Shown here in pieces: positions 9,378-26,452 of a DNA stretch of 35,626 nucleotides. Under the pieces are notes generated by a model. It saw only the letters and a list, made by a program, of their open reading frames with translations. It did no database searches and was not told the origin of the DNA. The stretch is from Anaerolineae bacterium (GTDB lineage Bacteria > Chloroflexota > Anaerolineae > JACIWP01). The position numbers and the translations under genes are program-made. The first letter of the stretch is position 1. Each line of letters starts with the position of its first letter. The stretch covers positions 1 to 35,626 of the forward strand of contig JAPWUQ010000005.1 in NCBI GenBank assembly GCA_028275445.1, written 5' to 3'.

Positions 9378-12300
9378 TTATCGGCCCCCGCCGGCGTATA
9401 AGAGGATAAGAGGCAGAAGGGTCCTCCCCATGCCGGCGCCCCGCAGAGCCACCATGCCGTCCGCCGGGTTCACCGCGTTGCTGAAAATCACCAGCATGTC
9501 GCTCCAGACGCCCGAGGCCGGCGGCGAGAAAGCGATGGCGAAGCTCTCGTACTGGCCGCGCGGGATGACCACGGGAAACCCCGTCGGATGCGCCAGCCGG
9601 AAAGCCCTCCCATCCACGAACGAGGCACCGGTGATGACGAGATTGGCACAGCCATTGGCAATGGGCGGGAAGGAGACCCACACCTCTTCCTGGGCTGTGC
9701 GGCCGGCCGGCAGGCTTCCGAAATCAATGCTCCGGCGGGAGACAGCGATGCGTACCTCGCACGCCGGCGTGACCGTCGGGGTAGGCGTTGGCCCCAGGGT
9801 GGCGGTCGCCGTCGGCGTGGCCGTGCTGGTAGCTGTGGCAGTCGGGGTGGGCGTGCTGGTAGGCGTGAGTACCGGCGTGCCGGCCGTGGGGGTCGGCGTC
9901 CAGGTCATGGTCGGCGTGGCCGTCCAGGTCGGGGTGGCCGTCGCGGTGGGCGTATAGGTGGCCGTCGGGGTGGCCGTCCGGGTGACGGTCGGCGTCGGCG
10001 TGGAGGTCGGCATGACGGTGGCGGTCGGGGTGGCGGTGGGGATCACCGCCGGCACCTGGTAGACGATCTGCAGTTTCGGCCGCGAGGCCGGCGAGACCGT
10101 ATATTCGGACGAGGCGAAGCGGTAATACAGGCTCCCCTGCCCCGGCCCCAGGAGCAGGACGCCGAAATTGCCGGCGGGGTCCCGCACCCAGTCCGCCACC
10201 AGCGAGGTGATATCGAAATTCAGCCAGGTGTTGATATTGGAGGCGGTCTGCACCGCCGCCGGGGTCGTGTCATAATCCCCGCCGGGCGTCTGCCAGGGGA
10301 CGCCGGCACGCGCCGTGTTCCACGTCGCCGCCGCTTCCTCCCAGGCCCTCGTCACCCGATGCGCCGTGATCATCATGGACTGGCTGGGATAGCGATATGT
10401 CGGCCATATGCTCAATGTGGCCTGCAGGATCGTGGCGTACGGCGGGATGCTCGACAGGTCAAAGGCGACCAGCACGCGCAGGGCGTTATCGCCGCGCAGC
10501 CACAGCGCATCTTCCGCGCCGTGGACCTGGTTGGGATTCCAGGCATCCAAGCTGGTATCCCGGACGCCCTGGTAGCCGTCCAGGCCGCGCTGAAGCACGA
10601 TGGTGGTGGGCACCGGCGAGGCTGTCGGGGTCGGTGTATAAAGGGGGGTGGGGGTCGGCGTCGGCGTAGGGATAAAGTAGCTGATGCTGAGGTAGGGGCG
10701 TTTGCCGGCATCCACATATTCCCGCGAATATGCCGAATAGCGCACATAGGGATGCACGCCGGCCTCGCCGCGGATCAACACGCCCTCGTTGGGCAGTGCG
10801 CCGCTGACCCACTCCTGCACCAGCGCGGTGATATCCCACGAAGCCCATCCCAGGCCCGTCAGGAGGGTGATGGCCGCCGGCTCCCCGCGGCGGTCGCCCG
10901 GCACGCCGTTGGCCCCGCCGGCGGACCAGGCCTGCCCCACGGCCGCCTGCCCCCAGGTCGCCTCATATTCCACCCAATGACGATTCACGGCATACACCGC
11001 GGCGGTAATGGTGTCCACGGCACTGCGCTCGCCGAAATAGAGATACATTTGGGCGCTGGTGATAATGGCATCCCGGGGAATTTCGGAAAGGTCGAAGCGC
11101 AGGAGGATCTCCTGCCGGCTGTCCTCCACCACCTGCAGCATAGGGTTGGCGCCAAAATTCACCCCGGGCTGATACAGGTCCAGGGTCGTATCCGCTTCGG
11201 CCGGGGCGTCATCGCGGCCGGTGGCCGGCACGGTGGGGGTAGGAGTGCCGGCCGGCGTGGCGGTCATGGTTGGCGTCGGCGTGCGGGTCGGCGTGACAGC
11301 GGACGAAGTGGCGGTGCGCGTCGGGGTGAGGGTCGGTGTGGACGTTGCTCCGCCGGCCGGGGTGGCGGTGGGCGTCGGGGCGGGAAGGAGTGCCGGCTGG
11401 CGCTCCACGACGACCATATGGATGATCTCGTCCCCGTCGCCCCGGCAGTCAATATAGAAATCGCTCCCGCCGGGCCCCCGGTTGGCGAACTGCGCGTCGT
11501 AGAGCACGAAGCTCACCCGCTTCCATGTGCCCGTGTTGGTCTTATACACGATGCCGGCGCTCTCCGCCGGCGAGTTCGCGCCGTCGTATTTCAGCTCCCA
11601 GGCGTCATAGCCGCGGTCGAAGTAGGTCACCGTGATGGTCACCGGGGCGGTGGTGGTAAAGGCATCGTCCAGCTTGAAGAACATATAGGGGTTGCCGCTG
11701 GCCTGGTCGGTGCGGCGGGTGATCCAGCCCTCTTTCGTGCCGGCGAGGTAGCTCACGTTCACCTCGTCCACCAGCGATCCCTGCTGAATCTCATACCCTT
11801 CGCAGTAGTCCTGGGCGGTGCGTGAGGTCTGCTGGGGATTGCAAAAGCCGTCACGCCAGGTGATGGCGCGCGTGTCACCGCCGGGCACCGTATCGTCCTG
11901 CGTGAGCCATTCGCCGAAGTTGCCCCGCTCGGCGTACCAGTAAAAGCCGGATTCGCGCAGTGCCACCCAGGCCGCCGGCGCCGTGCTCACATCCTGCCCC
12001 AGCAGGCGGTTGGCAAAGCGCAGGATGTCAGTGTTGGCGGTGTCGGTGATGATCTGCCGGCCCAGCACCAGATAGTCGGCATGCTTCGCCAGCCCGCTCA
12101 GGATGCCCCAGTACGCCAGCGTGGAATCCGCGAGATAATAGGGATACGTCCCCTCCCAGGCGATCGGCACCTCCGTCCAATGGAGCAGGATGGGGTCGTA
12201 GGCCCCACACTGGTAGAGCGAATAGCCGGGATCGTTGATGACGGTGGCATCGGCGTCCGCGGCCAGCCCGTTGTGCTTCAGCCCCACTCCCAGCGAGGCG

Positions 12301-13049
12301 GCGTAGTTGGTGAACTCGCGGCGCTCGCAGGGCGAGAGGAAGCGCGGCGCGAACTGCAGGAACAGGGGCTTGTTGCGGAAGGCCTGGCGGTAGATATCGG
12401 TGATGGCATTGACCGTAGCGATCCATTTGGCGCTGTCCAGGCCGGCGGCTTTCAGGCAGTCATTGGCGCTGGCTTCCGCCGGCGTCGTCTCGCCGTACAT
12501 GCCCACCGAAATCTGCACCCAGGCGACGCGCGGGTCGTTGTCATAGCGGGCGGCCAGGGCGCGCACGAAGTTGCCGAATTTCTGCTGATAGAGGGGGTTC
12601 CAATAATGCGGGATGCGCTTGCCGCCGCAGTAGGCAGAGGGCACGCCGGCGCTATACACCCACAGCGGTGTGGCGCTGTCCGCCGGCGCCTCGTTGCGGA
12701 AGGTATCCACCGCAATGCCGGCCGGCTTGCCGGCGGCCTCCTGATTGTCCAGCCAGGTATCGATGAGGCCCCATTGATACTGCCCCTCCGCCGGCTCCAG
12801 CGCGCTCCAGGACCAATCCTGGTGCCCTCCCACAATGATGCCGGGATAATTGGCCGGCGTCAGGCCGGAGCGGCCGTCGTCCTGAAACACGTAGATGCCC
12901 GGGGCAGGGACGCGCGGGGCGGAGAACTGCGCCTGGGCCCCCGCCGGCGAACGAGCATCCACCGGCAGGCTCCGGTAGAGGATTATGACCATCAACAACA
13001 GCCCACCCATTCGCGCGGCCCAGCGCGCGGCCACAGAGCTTTTCATCAC
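9378..13049 (-). CDS. Large modular secreted protein: GH-like TIM-barrel-type domain, CBM-like domain, two DNRLRE-like domains, TP-rich linkers, ASH/HYDIN-like domain
   Basis: N-terminal signal/TM; 'GGHQDWSWSALEPAEGQYQWGLIDTWLDNQEAAGKPAGIAVDTF'; two copies of the pattern 'LRFDLS.IP..A.I..A.....V.R.W.E..ATW....' then 'W...DIT.LV..WV'; 'IDFGSLPAGRTAQEEVWV'; TP-repeat linkers. Confidence 0.85.
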   Translation of the reverse strand: MMKSSVAARWAARMGGLLLMVIILYRSLPVDARSPAGAQAQFSAPRVPAPGIYVFQDDGRSGLTPANYPGIIVGGHQDWSWSALEPAEGQYQWGLIDTWLDNQEAAGKPAGIAVDTFRNEAPADSATPLWVYSAGVPSAYCGGKRIPHYWNPLYQQKFGNFVRALAARYDNDPRVAWVQISVGMYGETTPAEASANDCLKAAGLDSAKWIATVNAITDIYRQAFRNKPLFLQFAPRFLSPCERREFTNYAASLGVGLKHNGLAADADATVINDPGYSLYQCGAYDPILLHWTEVPIAWEGTYPYYLADSTLAYWGILSGLAKHADYLVLGRQIITDTANTDILRFANRLLGQDVSTAPAAWVALRESGFYWYAERGNFGEWLTQDDTVPGGDTRAITWRDGFCNPQQTSRTAQDYCEGYEIQQGSLVDEVNVSYLAGTKEGWITRRTDQASGNPYMFFKLDDAFTTTAPVTITVTYFDRGYDAWELKYDGANSPAESAGIVYKTNTGTWKRVSFVLYDAQFANRGPGGSDFYIDCRGDGDEIIHMVVVERQPALLPAPTPTATPAGGATSTPTLTPTRTATSSAVTPTRTPTPTMTATPAGTPTPTVPATGRDDAPAEADTTLDLYQPGVNFGANPMLQVVEDSRQEILLRFDLSEIPRDAIITSAQMYLYFGERSAVDTITAAVYAVNRHWVEYEATWGQAAVGQAWSAGGANGVPGDRRGEPAAITLLTGLGWASWDITALVQEWVSGALPNEGVLIRGEAGVHPYVRYSAYSREYVDAGKRPYLSISYFIPTPTPTPTPLYTPTPTASPVPTTIVLQRGLDGYQGVRDTSLDAWNPNQVHGAEDALWLRGDNALRVLVAFDLSSIPPYATILQATLSIWPTYRYPSQSMMITAHRVTRAWEEAAATWNTARAGVPWQTPGGDYDTTPAAVQTASNINTWLNFDITSLVADWVRDPAGNFGVLLLGPGQGSLYYRFASSEYTVSPASRPKLQIVYQVPAVIPTATPTATVMPTSTPTPTVTRTATPTATYTPTATATPTWTATPTMTWTPTPTAGTPVLTPTSTPTPTATATSTATPTATATLGPTPTPTVTPACEVRIAVSRRSIDFGSLPAGRTAQEEVWVSFPPIANGCANLVITGASFVDGRAFRLAHPTGFPVVIPRGQYESFAIAFSPPASGVWSDMLVIFSNAVNPADGMVALRGAGMGRTLLPLILLYAGGGR
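9765..10050 (-). repeat. Low-complexity DNA encoding a roughly 90-aa Thr/Pro-rich linker
   Basis: Translated 'PTATPTATVMPTSTPTPTVTRTATPTATYTPTATATPTWTATPT...'; shorter ones near 10625-10680 and 11220-11390. Confidence 0.85.
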
Positions 13050-13091
13050 TTACCACCCCTGGAGATGCGTTATCCGAAGCAAAGGCCGGCG

Positions 13092-13120
13092 TTGCACAAT
13101 TGGCCCACACGTTATATAAT
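13092..13120 (+). promoter_or_regulatory. NUDIX gene promoter TTGCAC-N17-TATAAT
   Basis: TTGCAC 13092-13097, TATAAT 13115-13120, 17-bp spacer. Confidence 0.65.
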
Positions 13121-13178
13121 GACGGGAAAATGACTACCTCGTCACGGCATGCAGTGCCGGAACATCCGATTCGCCCCG

Positions 13179-13207: not shown

Positions 13208-13230
13208 AACGGGCCAGGAAAGAGGTGCGC

Positions 13231-13821
13231 ATGGCTTCACTGCAACCGGATAAACCCCTGGAAGCGTGGCAGGTATTGGGAGAGCGGGTCGTATATGACA
13301 ATCTCCCCTGGTTGAGGCTGATCGAACAGCATGTGCTGTTGCCCAACGGCCGGCATATCGAGCGCTATCTGGTCAGCGAAGGCCCGGATGTGGTGATGAT
13401 GTTTCCGGTGACTCCGGAGGGCCAGGTCATTTTCGTGGAGCAGTACAAGCACGGCATGGGCATGCTCTCGCTGGACCTGCCGGCCGGCTACATGGACGAG
13501 AGCGACCCCTCGCCCCTGTTCGCCGCACAGCGGGAGCTGGAGGAGGAGACCGGCTATCGGTCAGAGCGCTGGACGCACCTGGGGAGCCTATTCATGAGCC
13601 CCAATCGCTCCCGCGGCCAGATCCATTACTTTTTGGCGGAAGACTGCCGGCCGGCCGGCCAACAGCACCTGGACCCGACGGAGGAACTGCGCGTCTATCT
13701 GCGCCGGCTGGAGGACATCCCCGGGATGATGGTGGATGGCTCCGTGCGCACCATTTCCTCCATCGCCGGCATGGCGCTGGGCGTGCTGGCAGTGCGCGGG
13801 AGCCTGGCCGGCACAGGGTGA
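13231..13821 (+). CDS. NUDIX hydrolase (ADP-ribose pyrophosphatase-like)
   Basis: Nudix box 'AAQRELEEETGYRSERWTHLG'; 'VIFVEQYKHGMGMLSLDLPAGYMDE'; ATG 13231 has a better-placed RBS than GTG 13225. Confidence 0.93.
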   Translation: MASLQPDKPLEAWQVLGERVVYDNLPWLRLIEQHVLLPNGRHIERYLVSEGPDVVMMFPVTPEGQVIFVEQYKHGMGMLSLDLPAGYMDESDPSPLFAAQRELEEETGYRSERWTHLGSLFMSPNRSRGQIHYFLAEDCRPAGQQHLDPTEELRVYLRRLEDIPGMMVDGSVRTISSIAGMALGVLAVRGSLAGTG

Positions 13822-13887: not shown

Positions 13888-14931
13888 TTGGAAACATCGG
13901 AGAAACGCGCGGATCGCGAGACAGCAGGGCCAGCGCTGGCTCCCCGCCATATTCGCATGGACACCCTGGCGCGCTGGGCACTGCGCGCCGCCGGCCCCCT
14001 GATCCTGATCGGCATCCTGCTGTTCGGGGTGGACTTTTCGCGCGCCCTGGCCCTGCTCCTGAACGTCCAGCTCCCCTTGCTGCTCATCTCCTGGTTCGTG
14101 ATATTCCCGATAGTGGTGATACTGCGCTCCCTCCGCTGGCACATCATCGCCCGCATATACGACATCCGCCAACCGTTTTCCATGAGCATCTTGCTCTATT
14201 TCCTGGGCTTCTCCGCCGGCTTCTTCATCTCCGACGGCATCAGCGCCTTCGTGCGTTCGGTGTTCCTCAATCGCGATGGCTACCGCTGGTCGGTCTCCCT
14301 CCTGACGCCTTTCTGGGAGAAGACGGTGGAACTCATCGCCATCCTGCTGTCCGGCCTCATCGCCTTTGCCGCCCTGCCCCAATTGGTGTTGAACCGCGGC
14401 CTCCTGTACCTGGCCCTGATCCTGGGCGCCGGCATCACCGCCTCCACCGCGCTATTACTCTCGCCAGGCGTCCAGTCCTGGGCCTTTGAGCGCATTTTCC
14501 CCTGGCTGGCGCGCCGCACATCCCGCCTGCGCCAGGAATCGGGCGCGGCCCTGCTGGCCGAATTCCGCCGCATGCGGCCGAGGGCGGTGGTCGGCCTGAC
14601 GCTGTTCTCCATCGCCACCCGCCTGTTGTATTTCTATTCCCTTTACCTGGTGGGACAGGCCATGGGGTGTCCGCTCTCCTTCTGGCAGGTCTCGCTGGTA
14701 ATGGCCTTCGTCAGCCTGGTCACCATGCTGCCGATCGGCATCGGGGGCATTGGCAGCCGGGATGTGGTGATGATCCCGACCTTTCATCTGTTCGGACAGC
14801 CGGCCGAGCAGGCTGTCGCCTTCTCATTCCTGATCCTGCTGACCAACGTCATCTGGCGGGCGCTGGGCGCGCTGGCATGGACGCTTCTCCCGCGCTACCT
14901 GCCGGCACCCGCCTCCGAGGATACCCCCTGA
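13888..14931 (+). CDS. Lysylphosphatidylglycerol synthase TM region / flippase-like membrane protein
   Basis: Multi-TM; 'LRSLRWHIIARIYDIRQPFSMSILLYFLGFSAGFFISDGISAFVRSVFLNRD...TPFWEKTVELIAI', 'LPIGIGGIGSRDVVMI' typical of the LPG_synthase_TM family. Confidence 0.88.
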   Translation: METSEKRADRETAGPALAPRHIRMDTLARWALRAAGPLILIGILLFGVDFSRALALLLNVQLPLLLISWFVIFPIVVILRSLRWHIIARIYDIRQPFSMSILLYFLGFSAGFFISDGISAFVRSVFLNRDGYRWSVSLLTPFWEKTVELIAILLSGLIAFAALPQLVLNRGLLYLALILGAGITASTALLLSPGVQSWAFERIFPWLARRTSRLRQESGAALLAEFRRMRPRAVVGLTLFSIATRLLYFYSLYLVGQAMGCPLSFWQVSLVMAFVSLVTMLPIGIGGIGSRDVVMIPTFHLFGQPAEQAVAFSFLILLTNVIWRALGALAWTLLPRYLPAPASEDTP

Positions 14932-16703: not shown

Positions 16704-18755
16704 ATGCAGATCATCCGACTCATGTTGGCCATTGCGCTTTGTTGGGGGCTGCCCGGCTTCTTCCTGGTGAGCCTCATCTGGCCGCGGGAGGAAGGGCTTT
16801 CCATCCTCGGAAGGGGTGTGCTCTCCGCGGCGTTGAGCGCGGTGGTCACCTCGCTGATTGGCCTGGCGCTGGCCGGCCTGCACCGGCTGAACGCCGGCTG
16901 GGCCTGGGGGGCCATGCTGGCGTTGACAGCCGTACTGGCAGGCATATGGCTGGGCCGGCGGCCGGCGCGGCCGCGGTTGGCATGGAGCCGGCGGAGCGCG
17001 ATCACTGCCTTCATCCTGCTGGTCACCCTGGCGGTCGTCCTGGCGCCGCGGCTCTATCTCGCCTTCGGCCCTAATCCCATTCCCCTGGAGCCCGATTCCT
17101 GGGCCTATATGGCCGACACGACCCGCATCATTGCCGCCGGCACCATCCCCGAACGGGTCTATCAATGGGGCATCGAAACCACATTCCCCACCGACAAGGT
17201 GCTTTTCCTGCTCTTCAGCGCCGTATTCCAGCTCCTCAGCGGCCTGGACGCGCTGGGCGTGATGACCTGGGTCACCCTGTTGTACGCGGCGGCCGGCGCG
17301 GCGGCGCTGTGGCTCTGGCTGCGGGAATTCCTCCCCATCTCCATCGCCTCCGCCCTGACGATGCTGGTCTTCCACGACGATTTGGTGGGCTACGGGCTGT
17401 TCTCCAACCGCTTCGGCGAGGAGTTCTTCCGCGCCGAGGGTTTCGCGCTGATGCTGGGATTCGCCGCGCTGTGGTTGACCAGCCGGCAGTTGCACAGCCG
17501 CGGTCAGCGCCTATGGCCGCTCATCTCCGTGCTCCTGGCCGTCATGGCGCTGTCGCACGGCGTGGCGGCACTGTCTATCGCGCTGTTGATCGCGGCCTTG
17601 TTCGCCGGCCATTGGCTCGTCGAACGTCTGCGAGGAACAGCGCCGCTGGAATTGGCGAAGATCGCCGGCGGCGCGATCACCGCTACCGGCCTGCTGTTCC
17701 TCTGTGTCAACGGCGTCCCCCAGCCGCATTTTGCCGGGGTCCTCGCCGATTCCAGCGGCTATCAGCAGTTCGGGGACCAGGACCCCTCATACCTCCTCAA
17801 GCTCCGCCTGTCGGGAAAGGATGACGGTCTGTACCTGTACCTGCGGCCGAAATCGCTCCAGCGGTTTTATGAATCTCCTGCACGCCTATGGGAGCTGTTA
17901 CTGCGCCGTTCCTTCCCGCCGGCCATGACCTTGGGCCGCGCCCGGGCCGGCATCGCCCTGTTTCTCCTGGGAGCGCTGCTGCTCTGTGGGACGCGGGTGC
18001 TCCCATCGGCCGCCCGTGCCGCGGCGGCCGGCCTGCTGATGGGCTTCCTGGCCCTGTACGGGATAGGCCTGTTCTTCTCCTGGCGTTATGAGAACTACGC
18101 GCTGGCCCTGCACGGCGCCAACCGGGAGTTCCCATATGGCGGGCTGTGCGTGATGGTCCTGGCCGGCATCCTGGCCAGCGCGGGCCGGCAGGCATTCCCG
18201 CGCTGCCGGCCGTGGATGGGCCGCCTGTATGGGCTTGCATGGGCCATCGTGTGGCTGGCCCTGCTGGTGCCCGGCTACCGCAATATGCTGAACTCCTATG
18301 CGTCCCACGGCGACCTGAACCGCGACGGCATGCGCGCCCTCCAGTGGATCGCCCAGCATACCCCTTCCGATGCGGTTCTGTTGGTCAGCCGCCGCACGGC
18401 CGGCTCCGTGGAACTGCTGGCCGGCCGGCGCAGTCTCACCGAGGGCCGGGGCGCCTACCTGCGTCCCGAGGTGCTGGCACAGATTTTCCGGGTCATGGAC
18501 CAGGCCGAATGCTTCTTCCACGATCCCACCTGCACCGATATCATCACGACGCATCATGTGGATGTGGTCCTGTTCGCGCCGGCGGCGAGCATCGGGGGCA
18601 ATCTGCCGGATTTTGCCGAGGGCGTGGGCCAGGCCCAGTTGGACTCGGCCCCATACCTGCAGAACATCGCCCGATTCGGCGGCGTGTACATTTACCAGGT
18701 GAACCATACGCTGTTGGGAACAGACACCCCACCGGGTCAGGAGGTCGCGCCATGA
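16704..18755 (+). CDS. Large multi-TM protein, GT-C-like membrane glycosyltransferase
   Basis: Many hydrophobic segments, first-loop 'PIPLEPDSWAYMADTTRIIAAGTIPERVYQWGIETTFP', C-terminal soluble part; glycan-operon context. Confidence 0.65.
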   Translation: MQIIRLMLAIALCWGLPGFFLVSLIWPREEGLSILGRGVLSAALSAVVTSLIGLALAGLHRLNAGWAWGAMLALTAVLAGIWLGRRPARPRLAWSRRSAITAFILLVTLAVVLAPRLYLAFGPNPIPLEPDSWAYMADTTRIIAAGTIPERVYQWGIETTFPTDKVLFLLFSAVFQLLSGLDALGVMTWVTLLYAAAGAAALWLWLREFLPISIASALTMLVFHDDLVGYGLFSNRFGEEFFRAEGFALMLGFAALWLTSRQLHSRGQRLWPLISVLLAVMALSHGVAALSIALLIAALFAGHWLVERLRGTAPLELAKIAGGAITATGLLFLCVNGVPQPHFAGVLADSSGYQQFGDQDPSYLLKLRLSGKDDGLYLYLRPKSLQRFYESPARLWELLLRRSFPPAMTLGRARAGIALFLLGALLLCGTRVLPSAARAAAAGLLMGFLALYGIGLFFSWRYENYALALHGANREFPYGGLCVMVLAGILASAGRQAFPRCRPWMGRLYGLAWAIVWLALLVPGYRNMLNSYASHGDLNRDGMRALQWIAQHTPSDAVLLVSRRTAGSVELLAGRRSLTEGRGAYLRPEVLAQIFRVMDQAECFFHDPTCTDIITTHHVDVVLFAPAASIGGNLPDFAEGVGQAQLDSAPYLQNIARFGGVYIYQVNHTLLGTDTPPGQEVAP

Positions 18756-21700
18756 CCGGATCGCTTCCAGACAGCCCACGAGGAAGCGCATCCCTGCCCT
18801 GGCGGCAGACAGCGATCGCGCTGGCCGCCATCCTGACGGTGCTGGCCGGCACCTTCCTGCCCCCGCCCCTGCACGACCATATCGCCGTCTGGCAGGCGAT
18901 TTGGCTGGTTGCCTTATTCCTGGCCAGCGCATGGGTGCCCGGCTACCTGTTGGACGAATGGCTGCATCTCAGCGGGGAGCAGGTGACGCCGGCCTCGCCG
19001 GCGGTGTGGATAGCGCTGTCCTGCGGCTTGCTGGCGCCGGCCGGCTGGCTGGTCCTGGCGCTCCACACGCCGCTGACGATGTTCGGGCTGTTGACCGCGG
19101 CCACCATCCTGGTCCTGCTCGCGCCGCATCTCATCGGGCGCATCAGCCCGCGCCCCTTGGTCTGGCCCTTCGGCCGGCAGGACAGGACCTGGTTATTCAT
19201 CCTGGGCATCCTGACGCTGACCCTGTTGGGATTGGCCGTCTGGGGGCCGGAGAACGCCGATAACTGGACGTACAACTCCTATATCCGCGAGTACATCGCC
19301 ACCAATGCGGTGAACGCCGCGCACCCATCATTTGGGGCGGGGATCCCGGACAGCCCCCGCATGATCTACAACGTCTGGCTGGTGTTCCAGGCCTTTCTGT
19401 CACGTGGGGTGGGACTGCACCCAGGCTATGCCTTCGCCCCGCCCTTTAAGGTGTGGATGGCGCTTATGGCCCTTGGGGCGGTATACACCCTGGCGGCGGC
19501 ATTGTTCCGCACGCCGGCACGCGCCCTGCGCGCCACCGCTATCTTCGCCGCTCTGCTGTTCCTGGCGCCGGGGTTCCGGGAACCCGGCTCGCAGTTTATC
19601 ACCACCATCAACTACGACAAGTACACCGCCCTTTTTGTGCTCATGCCGGCAGGGATGTTCCTGGTGCTGAAGGCGCTGGAGGGCGCCACCTGGCGGGATT
19701 GGGCCGGCCTGTTCGTGCTGGGCGCCGGCCTGTCCGCCGTGCACGCCGAGGTGCTGATGCTCCAGCTCCTTTCCTGCGGCTTTCTGCTGGTGACCCTGCT
19801 GGTACTGCGCCATCCTTTTCCCAGGCTTCGGCGCGCGGCCGGCGCCATAGCCTGCCTCTTCCCCTGGAGCGGGTTCGTCGCTTTCACCGCCTGGATGGCG
19901 CTGAAGCGGGGGCCGGCGCCGGGGAGCCAGGCATGGGAACTCCTGCATCAGGCCGATCTGGCGCAGGGGCGCATCCGCTTCCTGGGCGGCAGTCAGTGGT
20001 TCATCGTGGAACCGACGCTGGTGCTCTACCCACTGCTGGTGATCAGCCTTTTGCTCACCCCGCTGTTGCTTTCCCGCCGACTGCGGGGCCGACTTCCTAC
20101 CGCACTGCTGTTGGGCAACCAGATCGGCCCGCTGGTGCTGATGTTCCTGCCCGGACTGCCCAATTTGATGGATCAGTTCACGGAATTTAATACCCTGTGG
20201 CGCATCGGCTGGATATGCATGCCGGCCTTCACCATCATCTATATCCTGGACGGTTTTGAGGACGTCTGGCTCCCCTGGTGGCAGAGGGCCTGGACCGGAC
20301 TGCGCCGCATCCTGCCGGCGCCCCTGCGGTACATGCTCATCACCCTGATAGGAGCGGTCTGCCTGGCCGGCTTGGTCTGGACGGCGGTATCCGCTCTCCA
20401 GCGGGAGATCATCGGGTGGCGGGCCCGCCAGTGGACACCCAGCCCCGGGCTGTACGAGACACTGGCGCCCCTGGAGCCGGCGGTCAGCGCCATGGGCGCG
20501 CCCATGGTCCTGGCTTCCGCCGACGAGACCTACCAAATTCCTTCCATCTGGCCCTTCGCCCGTGTGCTGGCGACGCGCGGCATTCGCGGCACGCTCCCCT
20601 CCTTCCCACCGGAGCGCCAGGAGGAGGCCCTGGCCCGGCTCAACCTTGTCAATCAATGGGGTTCACTGGACCCGATCAGCCAGGAGATATTGGACGCGCT
20701 CCAGCGGTTCGATGTGGAACTGATCGTGCTGAACCGGGAGCAGATGCCGGCGCTGGAGGATCAATTCGACCGCCTGCCGGCGATGTACTGGAAATTAGCC
20801 CGCTCGAACACCCACAGCGTCTATCTCGTGCCGGGCGATCCCTCATCCCCGCTGGCAGTGGTCGGCATGGCGCAGGCGGCCTGGATGCGGGGCGACGAGG
20901 AAGAGGCCTGCCGCTTGTTTGACGAAGCCCACAGCCGCCTGCCCGATTTCGCCACGGCCACCGCCGGCGCCGCCTGGTGCGCCGAGCGCGCCGGCCGGGC
21001 CGGCGAGGCGCTGGACCTGTATCAGCAGGCCCTGGGCCAACTGGATGCTCTTCCGGCGATGCTCTTGGACGCGGCGCCGGCACTGCGGTCCTGGGCGATC
21101 AGCCGGCCAATGACGATACGACTGCTGGCGGACGCGTTCCTCCAGGACACCCATGCTTTCATCGCCGAACGGCTGTCCCGGCTGAGCATGCCTGCCCACG
21201 GGACAGCGAGCGGAGGCGCTCTGCTGTGGGTGGGGGGATGGCCGAGGCTGGCGGTGCAGGCGCCGGCGGGCACCCTGGCTTCCTTACAGCTCCTCAGTTC
21301 GGTCTCTTCCCCCGTGCGCCTCACACTGCGGGCAGAGGGAGCTGATGGGAATGCGGTGTTCTGCTCCCTCTTGGGAGGACGCTCGGACGGGGATCTGCGC
21401 GTGTGGACACAACATATGCTCCTTGCCGGCGAGGAGCAGTTGGTGGAACTGCCGGCGCTCTCCGATGAACGCCTCTGGCTGCAGGCGCAGGGTACCGATG
21501 CCGGCAGTTCCTGCATCGCCTACGGCTGGTACATCACAGAGGAACCGGGAGGCCCTGCTCCCCTCTCGCCAGAGGAAGAACGCCTGGCGGAGCGGCTCTC
21601 CACCACCCTACCGGGATGGGAACCGAGATGGGCAGGCGAGATTGCCCGCGCACTGCTCCGGCCGAAGGCCGGCGACCCGATACTGGCGACCGCCCTGGCC

Positions 21701-22159
21701 GGCCGGAACCTGCTCCAGGATGCGGACTTTGCCCTGGGGGAGGCCGGCCCCTGGCGGCGCATCGCGGCGAATCCCGCGGCCCAATTCGCCTTTCTGCCGG
21801 ATGAAGAAGGGGATCTCGCCGCCGTCGTGCAGGGAGAAGGAACGGTCTATCAGGGCGGATGGTGTCAGACGCTGGCGGTGACCCCCCGCGCAAAATATCT
21901 GTACCTGGTGCGGTTGTCGGCGCGACTGGACGCCGGCGGAAAGGTCATCGCCGGCTATTGGGATTACCGCCGGCTGGGGCAGTACCGCACCCAGGTGGTC
22001 CAAATGCTGAAGCAGTCCACCGATTGGACGGTGGTGCCGGCAGTGATAGAGGTGCCGGCCGGCGTGCGCTCCCTCAGCTTCTGTCCGGCCCTGCTCTCCG
22101 GTCCGGGCGAGGTGCGGGTGGACTGGGCATGGCTCCTGCCGCTGGATGCCCTGCAGTAA
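18752..22159 (+). CDS. Very large GT-C-like membrane protein with TPR-like and C-terminal CBM-like domains (1135 aa)
   Basis: ATG 18752 overlaps the previous TGA (ATGA); N-terminal multi-TM, loop 'ENADNWTYNSYIREYIA'; 'AQAAWMRGDEEEACRLFDEAHSRLPDFATATAGAAWCAERAGRAGEALDLYQQAL' TPR-like; 'NLLQDADFALGEAGPWRR...' CBM-like tail. The ORF track's 18146 start is an upstream extension. Confidence 0.75.
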   Translation: MTGSLPDSPRGSASLPWRQTAIALAAILTVLAGTFLPPPLHDHIAVWQAIWLVALFLASAWVPGYLLDEWLHLSGEQVTPASPAVWIALSCGLLAPAGWLVLALHTPLTMFGLLTAATILVLLAPHLIGRISPRPLVWPFGRQDRTWLFILGILTLTLLGLAVWGPENADNWTYNSYIREYIATNAVNAAHPSFGAGIPDSPRMIYNVWLVFQAFLSRGVGLHPGYAFAPPFKVWMALMALGAVYTLAAALFRTPARALRATAIFAALLFLAPGFREPGSQFITTINYDKYTALFVLMPAGMFLVLKALEGATWRDWAGLFVLGAGLSAVHAEVLMLQLLSCGFLLVTLLVLRHPFPRLRRAAGAIACLFPWSGFVAFTAWMALKRGPAPGSQAWELLHQADLAQGRIRFLGGSQWFIVEPTLVLYPLLVISLLLTPLLLSRRLRGRLPTALLLGNQIGPLVLMFLPGLPNLMDQFTEFNTLWRIGWICMPAFTIIYILDGFEDVWLPWWQRAWTGLRRILPAPLRYMLITLIGAVCLAGLVWTAVSALQREIIGWRARQWTPSPGLYETLAPLEPAVSAMGAPMVLASADETYQIPSIWPFARVLATRGIRGTLPSFPPERQEEALARLNLVNQWGSLDPISQEILDALQRFDVELIVLNREQMPALEDQFDRLPAMYWKLARSNTHSVYLVPGDPSSPLAVVGMAQAAWMRGDEEEACRLFDEAHSRLPDFATATAGAAWCAERAGRAGEALDLYQQALGQLDALPAMLLDAAPALRSWAISRPMTIRLLADAFLQDTHAFIAERLSRLSMPAHGTASGGALLWVGGWPRLAVQAPAGTLASLQLLSSVSSPVRLTLRAEGADGNAVFCSLLGGRSDGDLRVWTQHMLLAGEEQLVELPALSDERLWLQAQGTDAGSSCIAYGWYITEEPGGPAPLSPEEERLAERLSTTLPGWEPRWAGEIARALLRPKAGDPILATALAGRNLLQDADFALGEAGPWRRIAANPAAQFAFLPDEEGDLAAVVQGEGTVYQGGWCQTLAVTPRAKYLYLVRLSARLDAGGKVIAGYWDYRRLGQYRTQVVQMLKQSTDWTVVPAVIEVPAGVRSLSFCPALLSGPGEVRVDWAWLLPLDALQ

Positions 22160-22186
22160 CGATATTGCGAAGAGGGATGTATAGGG

Positions 22187-23047
22187 ATGGAGAACTACAA
22201 GGTCTCAATCGTGATGCCGGCATACAACGAGGCAGAGGCCATCGGGGATGTCCTGGACGCCGTGTTCGCCCTGGGGCTTCCCGAGCTTGAGGTCATTGTG
22301 GTGGACGACGGCTCCCACGATCGGACGGGCGAGGTCGCGCGTGCCAAAGGGGCGCGGGTGATTCGCCATCCGTACAACCGCGGCAACGGCGCGGCGGTGC
22401 GCTCGGGCATCCGCGCCGCGACGGGCGACATCGTGGTCATCATGGATGCCGACGGTCAGCATGACCCAGCCGACATCCCGCGCCTCCTGGAGAAAATGGA
22501 CAGCTATGACATGGCCGTGGGGGCGCGGCCGGCCGGCGCCGGCGCCTGGCACCGCAACCTGGCCAATTGGGTATATAACCGCTTCGCCAGCTACATCGCC
22601 GGCTTTCCGATCCTGGACCTGACCAGCGGCTTTCGCGCCATCCGCGCCCCGCTGGCCAAATCCCTGTGCTACCTCCTGCCGAACACCTTCTCCGCCGCGG
22701 CAACTATGACGCTGGCGGTGGCGCGCGGCGGCTACGGCATCACGTATGTGCGCATTCAGGTGCGCCGGCGCGCCGCCGGCAAAAGCAAAATCTCCCTCCT
22801 GCGCGACGGTTTCCGCTTCTTCGTCCTTATGGCCAAGGTGGCCACCCTCTTTTCGCCGCTGAAGGTCTTTGGGCCGCTCAGCGTCCTGGTCGGAGGCCCC
22901 GGCTTCGTCTACGCCATTTACCGGCTGGCCATCGGCAAAGCCTGGACCATCCCCATCACTATCTCCCTGACCATGGGAGCGCTCATCCTGGTGCTGGGCT
23001 TGATTTCCGAACAGATCGCCACCCTGCGCTTTCAGCAAATGGAATGA
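22187..23047 (+). CDS. Family 2 glycosyltransferase, DPM1/polyprenyl-phosphate sugar synthase-like
   Basis: 'VSIVMPAYNEAEAIGDVLDAV', 'EVIVVDDGSHDRTGEVAR', 'GDIVVIMDADGQHDPADIPRLL', two C-terminal TMs. Confidence 0.93.
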   Translation: MENYKVSIVMPAYNEAEAIGDVLDAVFALGLPELEVIVVDDGSHDRTGEVARAKGARVIRHPYNRGNGAAVRSGIRAATGDIVVIMDADGQHDPADIPRLLEKMDSYDMAVGARPAGAGAWHRNLANWVYNRFASYIAGFPILDLTSGFRAIRAPLAKSLCYLLPNTFSAAATMTLAVARGGYGITYVRIQVRRRAAGKSKISLLRDGFRFFVLMAKVATLFSPLKVFGPLSVLVGGPGFVYAIYRLAIGKAWTIPITISLTMGALILVLGLISEQIATLRFQQME

Positions 23048-23050
23048 GGC

Positions 23051-24073
23051 ATGGCAGAAACGTATCCTCCACTACGTGCCAGCATTATCATCCCGATGTA
23101 CAACGCCAGCGCATACATCGCCGGCTGTCTGGACAGCCTGCTCCATCAGACCGTCCCAAGGGATGCATACGAGGTGATCGTGGTGGACGACGCCTCGACA
23201 GATGGAAGCGCCGAGCTGGTACGAGCGCGGTATCCCGGCGTCCGACTGATCCAGACGCCGGCGAACCTGGGATTTGCCGGCGCCGCCAACCTGGGCGCCC
23301 GAGAAGCCCGCGGGAAATGGGTGGTGTTTCTGAACGCCGACACGCGGCTGGTCCCCGATTGGCTGGAGCATCTGCTGGCAGTGGCGGAGAGCGATGCGCG
23401 CATCGGCGGGGTGCAGGCGGTGCAGATATTTCAATGGCGCCGGCCCAGGGGGACCCACGAGGAAACGCCCTACTATCTGGACCTCTGCCCATGGGGCTTC
23501 ACGCGCTATTATCCGGCCGGCGGCCGCTCGGACCCCATCCCCACCATGTTCCTCTCCGGCGCCGGCTGTGCCGTGCGCCGGGAGTGGCTGGAACAATACG
23601 GGCCGCCTTTCGATCCGCTTTTTTATATGTACGGGGAGGATCGGGATCTGGCACTGCGCCTTATCGTCCAGGGCTACCGCATCTACGCCGTGCCGCAGGC
23701 CAGGATGTGGCATGATCATCCCAACCCACTGATCAATCCTGGGGTGGGACTGCACAAGGCGAACCTGGCGGCGCGCAACGGCTGGCTGGCGTATCTAAAG
23801 AACATGTATCTGGCGGAATTCCTGGCTTATGCGCCGGCCCTCCTGGCCGGCAGTTTCCTGCGCGCCTGGGAATTTCCGGGGCCTTTATGGCGCCGGCTGG
23901 CCGCCGGCCTGGGCTATTTCCTGCTGACCCTGGTCTACCTCGTGCCGGCGCTCTGGTTTTACCTGGTGCGCCACGCGGCGGAGCGGCGGCAGAACCTCCG
24001 CCGGCGCACCCAACCTGCCGGCTGGCTCCTGCGGATGCTCCTGACCCCGGCCGCGCGCCGCACCTGGGAATGA
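23051..24073 (+). CDS. Family 2 glycosyltransferase
   Basis: 'ASIIIPMYNASAYIAGCLDSLLHQT', 'VIVVDDASTDGSAELVRARYPGVRLIQTPANLGFAGAANLGAREARGKWVVFLNADTRL', 'YGEDRDLALRL'. Confidence 0.93.
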   Translation: MAETYPPLRASIIIPMYNASAYIAGCLDSLLHQTVPRDAYEVIVVDDASTDGSAELVRARYPGVRLIQTPANLGFAGAANLGAREARGKWVVFLNADTRLVPDWLEHLLAVAESDARIGGVQAVQIFQWRRPRGTHEETPYYLDLCPWGFTRYYPAGGRSDPIPTMFLSGAGCAVRREWLEQYGPPFDPLFYMYGEDRDLALRLIVQGYRIYAVPQARMWHDHPNPLINPGVGLHKANLAARNGWLAYLKNMYLAEFLAYAPALLAGSFLRAWEFPGPLWRRLAAGLGYFLLTLVYLVPALWFYLVRHAAERRQNLRRRTQPAGWLLRMLLTPAARRTWE

Positions 24074-24076
24074 GAT

Positions 24077-26452
24077 ATGAGCCGCCGGCATGGGTCGGAA
24101 ATTGTCATCCTGCTCACGCTGATGGGCCTGGCGCTGGCACTGCGCCTCTGGCGCCTGGGAGAAGAGAGCCTCTGGATAGATGAGGCCAACGCCTTCGCCC
24201 AAAGCGCCGGCACCTGGGCCGACGTCCTGCGCATATCCCGCCAGGAACCGCTGGATTTTCCACTGGAGCGCTGGATCCTGCATCCGCTGACCACCTACCC
24301 GCCGAATGAGTTCCTCTTCCGCCTGCCGGCGGCGCTGTGGGGCGTGTTGGGCGTGGCGTTGACCTATGCCCTGGCGCGGCAGATATGGGACAAGGAGACG
24401 GCCCTGCTGGCCGCCGGCCTGCTGGCCCTCTCCCCCTATCACATCCGCTACAGCCAGGAGGCGCGCAATTACACCAGCTTTCTCGCCCTGCACCTGCTGA
24501 CGCTCCTGGCGCTGGTGCGGGCCGTGCGCCGGCGGGGACGCGCCGACTGGATACTCTACGCCCTGGCCGCCGGCATCGCCCTCTATGACCACCTTTACAG
24601 CCTCATCGTCCTGGCATGGCAGTGGGGCCTGCATGCCCTGCTGGCCCTGGTGAACACCCGACGCCAGGAACCCATCGGGGGGATCGGCCGGCAAACCCTT
24701 CGGGCACATTCGCTGGCGCTCCTGGGGGCCGGCGCGCTCCTGCTTCCCTGGGCCATCTATGTCGCCGGCGGGCCGTTCCTGCAGGAGCTGGGCACCTCCA
24801 GCGGGTTATTCCATGCACCGGGGACCCTTCGCCTGGAGCCGGACCTGTTCCTGCGCATGCTGTGCTGGTTCACGGCCAATCGAGGGGAGGCAGTGCCGGC
24901 GGCATGGATCGCGCTGGTGGGGATGGCCGGCGCATGCGCCCTCCCCGCCAGACCGGCGCGCCGGCTGGCCTGGCTGACCACCATTTACATGGCCGGCGTT
25001 TTCCTGACGGTAGCGGTGCTGTCGCGGCTCAGCGGCACCTATCTGGCCTACCGCCGTCTGCTGTTCCTGCAACCTCTGCTGTTCCTGCTGACAGCCGGCG
25101 GGTATTTGGCGCTGGCACGCTGGGCCTGGCGGCGGATCACGCGCCGGCCGCGGTCGGCCGGCGAAGTGCTCCTGCCGGCCCTGTTGATCCTCGCGGCAGG
25201 GCTGGCCTGGACGCCGGCCCTCCGGGACCATTACCGCTCCGAAAAGGAAAACTGGCGGGCCGTCGCCCAGGTCCTGAAGAACGAGGCCGGCGAGCGGGAT
25301 TGGGTGGTCAACTGCGCCGACAGCGCCAACGCCTGGCAGGCCCTGCGGGTGTATCTGGGGCCGACAGCGAGGACCCTGCAGTTACTGACGCCGGCCCAGG
25401 CGGGACAGCGGCTTGGCTCCACCTCCCGCCGGCCGGCGCGCATCTGGTACATTCTGCCCATACCGGTGAATGAGGGCGCCGGCCAGGGCTGGCAGTTCAA
25501 CGACCCGCGCCACCTGCGCCCGCTGGACGGGGACCGCTCCCTGCCGCCCCATGCCCTGATGCTCTCCCTGGAGCGCTGGGAGGTGCCGGCCAAGGACCCA
25601 CAGTTTCTGATCCAGAGCCTGCTGGAGGCACTGGCACGCACCTATTCCACCTCGCTTCCCATCCCGCTGGACTGGCGCTTCAATGCCCTGAACGCCTGGG
25701 CATCCTATCACGATGCGCAGGGGGATTGGGCGCCGGCACTGCGCGCCTACCAGACGGTGATGGCTGTACCGGCGGTGCCCGCGGCTATCCGGGAAAATCT
25801 GGCCGGCCTGACGGGGTATCTGTCCTGGAGGCTGGAACATGCCGGCGAAGTGGTGCCAGGCTCCTACTGGGATGCGCCGCGCTTCGGGGAGGCCCTTCGG
25901 GCGTATGCCCGCCAGCAGGGCATGCCCGTGGAGAGGGCGGACCAGCTCATGCAGTGGACCCTGGCGCTGGAGGCGGAGATGGGAGAGGAGCTTCCCGCCG
26001 GCTCCCAGGTTTGGCGCTTTGAGCGCCCGGAGGACCTGGGGGCATGGGACATCCGCCTGGCCGGCGCGTCAGCACACATCGCGCCGGGCGCGGAATGCGG
26101 CGGTGGATGGGCCGGCTGTCTGCGCATCGAAACCCAAGGTGCCGGCTATCACGGCTCGCTGGAACGCCGCCTGCATCTGGAACCCGGGCGCGCCTACCTC
26201 CTGCGTTGCCGCATGCGCACTGCCTCGACGCTGGCCCTGCAGGGCAAGGTGCTGTATGTATCCTACCGCCAGGCATGGCGCCGGCCCGGCGCCTATGCCA
26301 GCGCCTTCTGGGGCAGTGCCGGCTGGCAGACCTTTGTGGCCCTGTTCGTCCCGCCGGCCGGCGTCTCCGAGATCACCCTGGCGCCGGTGCTGGTGGATCA
26401 TGCCGGCGCCCTGTGGATCGCCGAGGTGAGTGTCATCCCCCTCTCGCCGTGA
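24077..26452 (+). CDS. GT39/ArnT-PMT-like membrane glycosyltransferase with C-terminal CBM-like beta-sandwich domain
   Basis: 'LALALRLWRLGEESLWIDEANAFAQSAGTW' GT-C first-loop motif; C-terminal 'VWRFERPEDLGAWDIRLAGASAHIAPG...GRAYLLRCRMRTAST...' region about 26000-26449. Confidence 0.85.
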   Translation: MSRRHGSEIVILLTLMGLALALRLWRLGEESLWIDEANAFAQSAGTWADVLRISRQEPLDFPLERWILHPLTTYPPNEFLFRLPAALWGVLGVALTYALARQIWDKETALLAAGLLALSPYHIRYSQEARNYTSFLALHLLTLLALVRAVRRRGRADWILYALAAGIALYDHLYSLIVLAWQWGLHALLALVNTRRQEPIGGIGRQTLRAHSLALLGAGALLLPWAIYVAGGPFLQELGTSSGLFHAPGTLRLEPDLFLRMLCWFTANRGEAVPAAWIALVGMAGACALPARPARRLAWLTTIYMAGVFLTVAVLSRLSGTYLAYRRLLFLQPLLFLLTAGGYLALARWAWRRITRRPRSAGEVLLPALLILAAGLAWTPALRDHYRSEKENWRAVAQVLKNEAGERDWVVNCADSANAWQALRVYLGPTARTLQLLTPAQAGQRLGSTSRRPARIWYILPIPVNEGAGQGWQFNDPRHLRPLDGDRSLPPHALMLSLERWEVPAKDPQFLIQSLLEALARTYSTSLPIPLDWRFNALNAWASYHDAQGDWAPALRAYQTVMAVPAVPAAIRENLAGLTGYLSWRLEHAGEVVPGSYWDAPRFGEALRAYARQQGMPVERADQLMQWTLALEAEMGEELPAGSQVWRFERPEDLGAWDIRLAGASAHIAPGAECGGGWAGCLRIETQGAGYHGSLERRLHLEPGRAYLLRCRMRTASTLALQGKVLYVSYRQAWRRPGAYASAFWGSAGWQTFVALFVPPAGVSEITLAPVLVDHAGALWIAEVSVIPLSP

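Follow-up and report, generated by a model that had tools for sequence, protein, structure and literature searches.

GT-C glycosyltransferases with an extracytoplasmic carbohydrate-binding module (CBM) and GT-C proteins with tetratricopeptide repeats (TPR) are already in the literature (PMC11127046, PMC3044687, PMC7801869). In the three-component GT136 pathway, a GT-C protein with a CBM attaches side-chain sugars to a finished polymer (PMC11127046). In EmbC, substitutions in the CBM lowered acceptor binding and chain extension (PMC3044687). Here, we analyse a gene set from an Anaerolineae bacterium (Chloroflexota; assembly GCA_028275445.1) that lies on positions 1 to 35,626 of contig JAPWUQ010000005.1; this whole stretch of 35,626 nucleotides is referred to as the window. 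It belongs to a fragmented 2.9-Mb assembly whose LepA is 73% identical to that of Anaerolinea sp. CH3, the best matches being almost all from Anaerolineae or other Chloroflexota. The set encodes three GT-C-like membrane proteins (A, B and C), two of which end in a CBM-like tail, together with two GT2 glycosyltransferases (GT2a and GT2b). With a probability of roughly 0.6, we read it as a three-component-like system that decorates (or assembles) a glycan outside the cytoplasm. An earlier note on this DNA had proposed an undescribed machine. That description was too strong, as GT-C with an extracytoplasmic CBM is known and tested (EmbC, AftD and GT136) and GT-C with TPR is known (TMTC). What is new is the combination of GT-C, TPR and CBM in a single protein, the use of a single CBM family by GT-C proteins of two types, a recurrent phosphodiesterase neighbour and relatives with a TPR arm of up to about 64 repeats. 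A search of the open-access literature found nothing on DUF6077, the family of B, or on GT-C with TPR and CBM.

Organization of the gene set

The five genes and the parts of their products that are discussed below are as follows.

16704..18755, +, A: 683 aa, multi-transmembrane (TM) GT-C-like protein without a CBM tail
18752..22159, +, B: 1135 aa, DUF6077 GT-C part, alpha/beta part, TPR-like part, beta domain and CBM-like tail
18752..20431, +, membrane GT-C part of B: residues 1-560, about 15 TM helices
20837..21187, +, TPR-like helices of B: residues 696-812, about three units
21188..21556, +, middle beta-rich domain of B: residues 813-935, nine strands in a low-confidence AlphaFold2 (AF2) model
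21704..22156, +, CBM-like tail of B: residues 985-1135, from AF2, Foldseek and profile search
22187..23047, +, GT2a: 286 aa, GT2 of polyprenyl-phosphate-sugar synthase type with C-terminal TM helices
23051..24073, +, GT2b: 340 aa, GT2 with C-terminal TM segments, MftF/EpsD/rhamnosyltransferase-like
24077..26452, +, C: 791 aa, PMT_2 GT-C with a C-terminal CBM-like tail
25994..26449, +, CBM-like tail of C: residues 640-791, homologous to the tail of B

The genes follow one another with a 4-bp overlap between A and B and then gaps of 27, 3 and 3 bp. The length of B is counted from the ATG at 18752, and its reading frame stays open farther upstream. In congener G001 the five genes are kept in synteny, with 65-85% identity, and the arrangement is therefore not a product of chance.

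Most of what the earlier note had proposed is borne out. All five of its tightly packed open reading frames are present; the GT-C type was recovered for B through DUF6077 and for C through PMT_2 (both above the Pfam cut-offs) and for A via homology to B; and its DPM1-like GT2 is GT2a, which is nearest to ArnC and DPMS. The TPR-like part of B agrees with a sub-threshold TPR_12 match and AF2 helices, and the CBM-like tails with Foldseek (for the tail of B) and profile matches to solved CBMs, the tail of C being homologous. Positive-inside topology likewise places the tails on the outer face, and the fusion is kept in the genus (G001) and recurs in other families.

Membrane domains of A, B and C

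The membrane part of B matches DUF6077 with 28.3 bits against a Pfam cut-off of 27. In an alignment of 16 DUF6077-type sequences (B, two orthologues and 13 distant proteins that are 15-26% identical to B), residues G64, D170, R203, A214, A258, G279, D289, K290, P299 and H331 are conserved in at least 90%; D170, D289-K290 and H331 correspond to positions 19259, 19616 and 19742 of the DNA. With helices taken from the AF2 model, and with the long helix 314-352 counted as two that meet at H331, the density of Lys and Arg is 0.18 in inner loops versus 0.06 in outer loops. By the positive-inside rule D170, which sits in the outer loop behind helix 5, D289-K290 and H331 are all predicted to face the outer side, and all residues beyond 547 to lie outside. 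We infer that D170 is the catalytic Asp of the GT-C type.

All Pfam matches of A are below threshold. It is colinear with B over 285 columns (hhalign 98.3%, a score that composition may inflate between membrane proteins such as these), with D131 pairing with D170 and H285 with H331, and it does not have the D-K motif found in B. This homology suggests that A is of GT-C type. It has about 15 hydrophobic segments and a C-terminal soluble part that is predicted to be outside. The gene is fragmented in G002, which was taken as an assembly break.

C matches PMT_2 (PF13231; 51.1 bits against a cut-off of 26.1), and the alignment places a DE motif, D35-E36, after TM1. When C was compared with A and B by hhalign, its membrane part gave no match, the tail alone aligning in one comparison and nothing in the other. 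The basic loop ahead of the last helix suggests that in both C and A the C-terminus is outside, as predicted for B.

The genome of the window (G000, 2.9 Mb) has a high GT-C load, with 35 PMT_2 matches. A tandem array of PMT_2 and DUF2298 GT-C proteins (L029 and L030, G000:C118) includes two members of 1211 and 1230 aa that also carry PA14 and NHL beta-propeller domains and one 1558-aa frame that combines PMT_2 with DUF2298.

The C-terminal tails

The tails of B and C are homologous (BLASTP 1e-6; hhalign 98.8%) and belong to the CBM4/16/22/70 fold group, as judged by model and profile for B and by homology for C. The AF2 model of the B tail is a beta-sandwich (pLDDT 88.8), for which Foldseek against the PDB returns CBM70 (2.7e-8) and CBM16 (2.9e-8), then CBM22 and CBM4. 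A sequence profile searched against PDB sequences finds the same two families (CBM70, 2.4e-6; CBM16, 4e-5), and a third route to the fold is chained homology to a Pfam CBM_4_9 domain that scores above the cut-off in a protein of another genome (L039). The tails are predicted to lie outside the cell.

Between the window and G001 the tail of B is 70% identical and its membrane part 73%; for C the values are 74% and 69%, while the TPR and linker regions fall to 38-49%. The dN/dS ratio is 0.28 for both tails. With conservation equal to that of the membrane parts, and with this ratio, the tails are under selection and are not passengers.

CBM70 binds hyaluronan through W82, R112 and R145, as established with mutants (PMC4175358). 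In our alignment these residues are not conserved in the tails, and membership of CBM70 was therefore rejected; for the same reason, the ligand of the tails cannot be inferred.

The tail profile was searched in 346 genomes of the class. Members of the family were found on a PMT_2 protein in G009 and on a DUF6077 and TPR protein in G028, which also has a second copy, with a weak match on a PMT_2-type protein in G117. In G210 the tail is carried by a GDSL-hydrolase and TPR protein (L039, G210:C83), the one with the Pfam CBM_4_9 domain, which suggests a glycan-modifying enzyme that shares a targeting module with B and C. Several of the weak matches fall on CBM_4_9 domains in other proteins, among which are hydrolases.

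Candidate sugar donor genes and polysaccharide context

GT2a appears to be a polyprenyl-phosphate-sugar synthase of the ArnC and DPMS type: its best PDB matches are ArnC (9.5e-22), Pyrococcus DPMS (1.6e-19) and the GtrB-type sll0501 (1e-8), it is also AglJ-like and its hydrophobic segments lie within 211-273. Pfam places both proteins in GT2; GT2b matches PF00535 with 132.6 bits, and its NCBIfam matches are below the cut-offs. The flanking genes are as follows.

13225..13821, +: nudix hydrolase, upstream gene and first of the short-gap run
13888..14931, +: LPG_synthase_TM/flippase-like membrane protein, 347 aa, PF03706 106.6 bits
14987..16675, +: type I phosphodiesterase/nucleotide pyrophosphatase (AP superfamily), soluble, PF01663 142.6 bits
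26602..30847, +: downstream block identified with Pfam, with GT4 (26602), Wzz (27726), Wzz (28491), CpsD-like ATPase (29303) and CpsB/CapC (30005)

The three upstream genes are on the same strand and precede A with gaps of 66, 55 and 28 bp; downstream, 149 bp separate C from GT4. In G001 the gene order is the same from an aldehyde ferredoxin oxidoreductase gene to a radical SAM gene, differing in that two additional minus-strand genes separate its Wzz copies, and the GT4/Wzz/CpsD/CpsB block is 91-97% identical. As the short-gap upstream genes and the downstream genes keep their order in this congener, the natural unit exceeds five genes: it takes in the nudix, LPG_synthase_TM and phosphodiesterase genes, which had been missed when the boundaries were first drawn, and leads into Wzz, CpsD and CpsB. 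The LPG_synthase_TM protein is 76% identical to its syntenic copy in G001 and is just under the cut-off for the TIGR00374 flippase-like domain, making it a candidate flippase for the lipid-linked sugar.

Beyond CpsB/CapC, Pfam identifies a nucleotidyl transferase, a radical SAM protein and an epimerase, and at the start of the window a partial Wzy_C. Promoter and terminator scans gave signals close to background. A minus-strand gene at 9378-13049 encodes a 1223-aa protein with CBM96/disaggregatase-like and GH42-like parts; the plus-strand frames at 9588-11825 and 12081-13133 are shadow frames opposite it and were rejected as genes.

Proposed mechanism and alternatives

In the decoration (or assembly) system that we propose, GT2a would attach a sugar to polyprenyl phosphate in the cytoplasm, and a flippase (the candidate being the LPG_synthase_TM protein) would carry the product across the membrane. 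On the outer face, A, B and C would pass the sugar on to a surface polysaccharide that the adjoining GT2b, GT4, Wzz, CpsD and CpsB proteins would make and export. Lying outside, the tails of B and C would keep the acceptor or growing chain beside the active site, which is what the CBM does in EmbC. B and C are read as outer-face transferases that hold the acceptor through the tail because a synthase-type GT2, a candidate flippase and GT-C proteins with CBM-like tails, the kinds of part that make up the GT136 pathway, occur together and because of the data on the CBM of EmbC. Gene set, folds, homologies, conservation and predicted membrane side were computed; the donor, the role of the flippase, the acceptor and sugar binding by the tails are the conditional steps.

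Several observations weigh against this proposal. The AF2 model of B is of moderate quality (pLDDT 71.5, pTM 0.62) and its best GT-C match in the PDB by Foldseek, PglB, is weak (8.3e-4 over 588 columns, root-mean-square deviation 16, TM-score 0.24/0.38). The flippase assignment depends on a general family, and the window has no Wzx. The W82, R112 and R145 of CBM70 are not conserved in the tails, and a jelly roll of this kind can have ligands other than sugar. The suggestion in the earlier note that the tails hold glycan at the cell surface stands as to their predicted location outside, with acceptor binding a matter of interpretation.

An unlikely alternative is that B and C glycosylate surface proteins, with the TPR-like part and the beta domains recognizing protein acceptors and the cluster merely supplying sugars. 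GT-C followed by TPR is the plan of the human O-mannosyltransferases TMTC1-4 (PMC7801869), and C belongs to PMT_2, PMT enzymes having a luminal MIR beta-trefoil (PMC7759382). However, the cluster runs on into genes that act on polysaccharide chains (Wzz, CpsD and CpsB/CapC), and the tails have a CBM fold. We consider it rather doubtful that the tails are structural beta-sandwich caps that fix the enzyme to the S-layer or cell wall, or contact a partner protein, and leave the acceptor sugar unbound. The lack of conservation of the CBM70 sugar-binding residues and the different terminal domain, with no Pfam match, of the relative in G061 would fit such a role, but the tail is under purifying selection as strong as that acting on the membrane part, and the closest structures are mainly sugar-binding modules. 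It is very improbable that A, B and C descend from GT-C proteins but have lost enzyme activity and now serve as glycan sensors or transporters: A lacks the D-K motif of B and no activity study of DUF6077 was found in the open-access literature, but the outer-loop Asp, the D-K motif and the His are kept across distant DUF6077-type proteins and C carries a DE motif.

The TPR arm and the phosphodiesterase neighbour

Of all the findings, the GT-C-(TPR)n-cap plan is the most unexpected. In B, the TPR-like part is indicated by TPR_12 (1.8e-4, below the Pfam cut-off), a consensus TPR in the PDB (0.006) and AF2 helices at 700-811. The middle domain is possibly a second beta-sandwich. Foldseek favours a second CBM, the top match of the whole B model being a tandem CBM22 (about 338 columns, poor superposition), whereas profile comparison of the middle domain with the tail gives no homology. 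In G061 a relative of 2997 aa has a GT-C part, then a clear 34-residue period from about 700 to 2890 (about 64 TPR units, estimated from length) and a short beta-type end. The relative in G035 (at least 2290 aa) shares this plan, with a long TPR array, and that in G087 (1344 aa) also has TPR. The genome of the window encodes another type of GT-C with TPR, a 1824-aa DUF2298 frame with C-terminal TPR (L032:2067-7538, G000:C186).

A PF01663 gene lies immediately 5' of the DUF6077-type gene in the genus of the window and in G048 (two copies). In G061 several same-strand copies precede it, separated from it by one other gene, G035 has a C-terminal phosphodiesterase fragment at the contig end and G062 has no phosphodiesterase next to its DUF6077-type gene. 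The adjacency thus holds in four of five testable lineages, G028 not being testable. With 7-20 PF01663 matches in 3.2-4.6 Mb, we estimate that roughly 1% of genes would have one within 5 kb on the same strand, so that four of five is far from chance. Residues D17, T56, H215, D269 and H270 of the phosphodiesterase are invariant in six relatives; from the AP superfamily, we take these to be the likely metal-site residues. Clustered PF01663 phosphodiesterases occur on the contig of the giant DUF6077-TPR protein (L176, G061:C13), with an additional protein that by eye resembles a polysaccharide deacetylase. As a speculation to which we give low odds, GT-C-(TPR)n-beta proteins might be transferases with an extracellular arm, its length set by TPR number and its tip bearing a sugar-binding or other cap, that works with the adjoining phosphodiesterase to position or measure an external glycan.

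Comparison with known systems

The locus extends the GT-C and CBM solution of mycobacterial arabinan and Citrobacter O-antigen synthesis to other GT-C families, and places it in Chloroflexota, a phylum whose surface glycans have received little study. With the same CBM family on GT-C proteins of two types, the operon offers a clean way to test whether such tails steer transfer to a polymer. The module of DUF6077, TPR and phosphodiesterase gives a concrete starting point for assigning a role to a family without one.

Like the tails, CBM70 (of a hyaluronate lyase; PMC4175358) and CBM16 are beta-sandwiches, with significant profile and structure matches; here, however, the module is on glycan-synthesizing rather than degrading enzymes, at about 15% identity and with binding residues not conserved. 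TMTC1-4 share with B the order of GT-C then TPR (PMC7801869), and in PMT O-mannosyltransferases GT-C is followed by a luminal sugar-binding-type fold (MIR), comparable to the tails (PMC7759382), whereas the present proteins are bacterial, end in a CBM fold and lie in a polysaccharide locus. The mycobacterial EmbA/B/C and AftD likewise combine GT-C with an extracytoplasmic CBM, which in EmbC binds the acceptor glycan (PMC3044687, PMC11127046). They differ in that the present families are DUF6077 and PMT_2, TPR has been added and no arabinan pathway genes were recognized in the window. A, B and C have no Emb or arabinosyltransferase match in Pfam, and the PDB sequence matches of B and C include no Emb or AftD chain. 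The GT136 system (Citrobacter youngae ORF12; PMC11127046) resembles this locus in having a polyprenyl-phosphate-sugar synthase, a GT-C protein with a C-terminal outer-face CBM and a polysaccharide locus. Compared by description, the present set has only a candidate flippase, an LPG_synthase_TM protein in place of the MATE flippase, and is distinguished by a DPMS/ArnC-type GT2, three GT-C-type proteins of two families and a TPR spacer.

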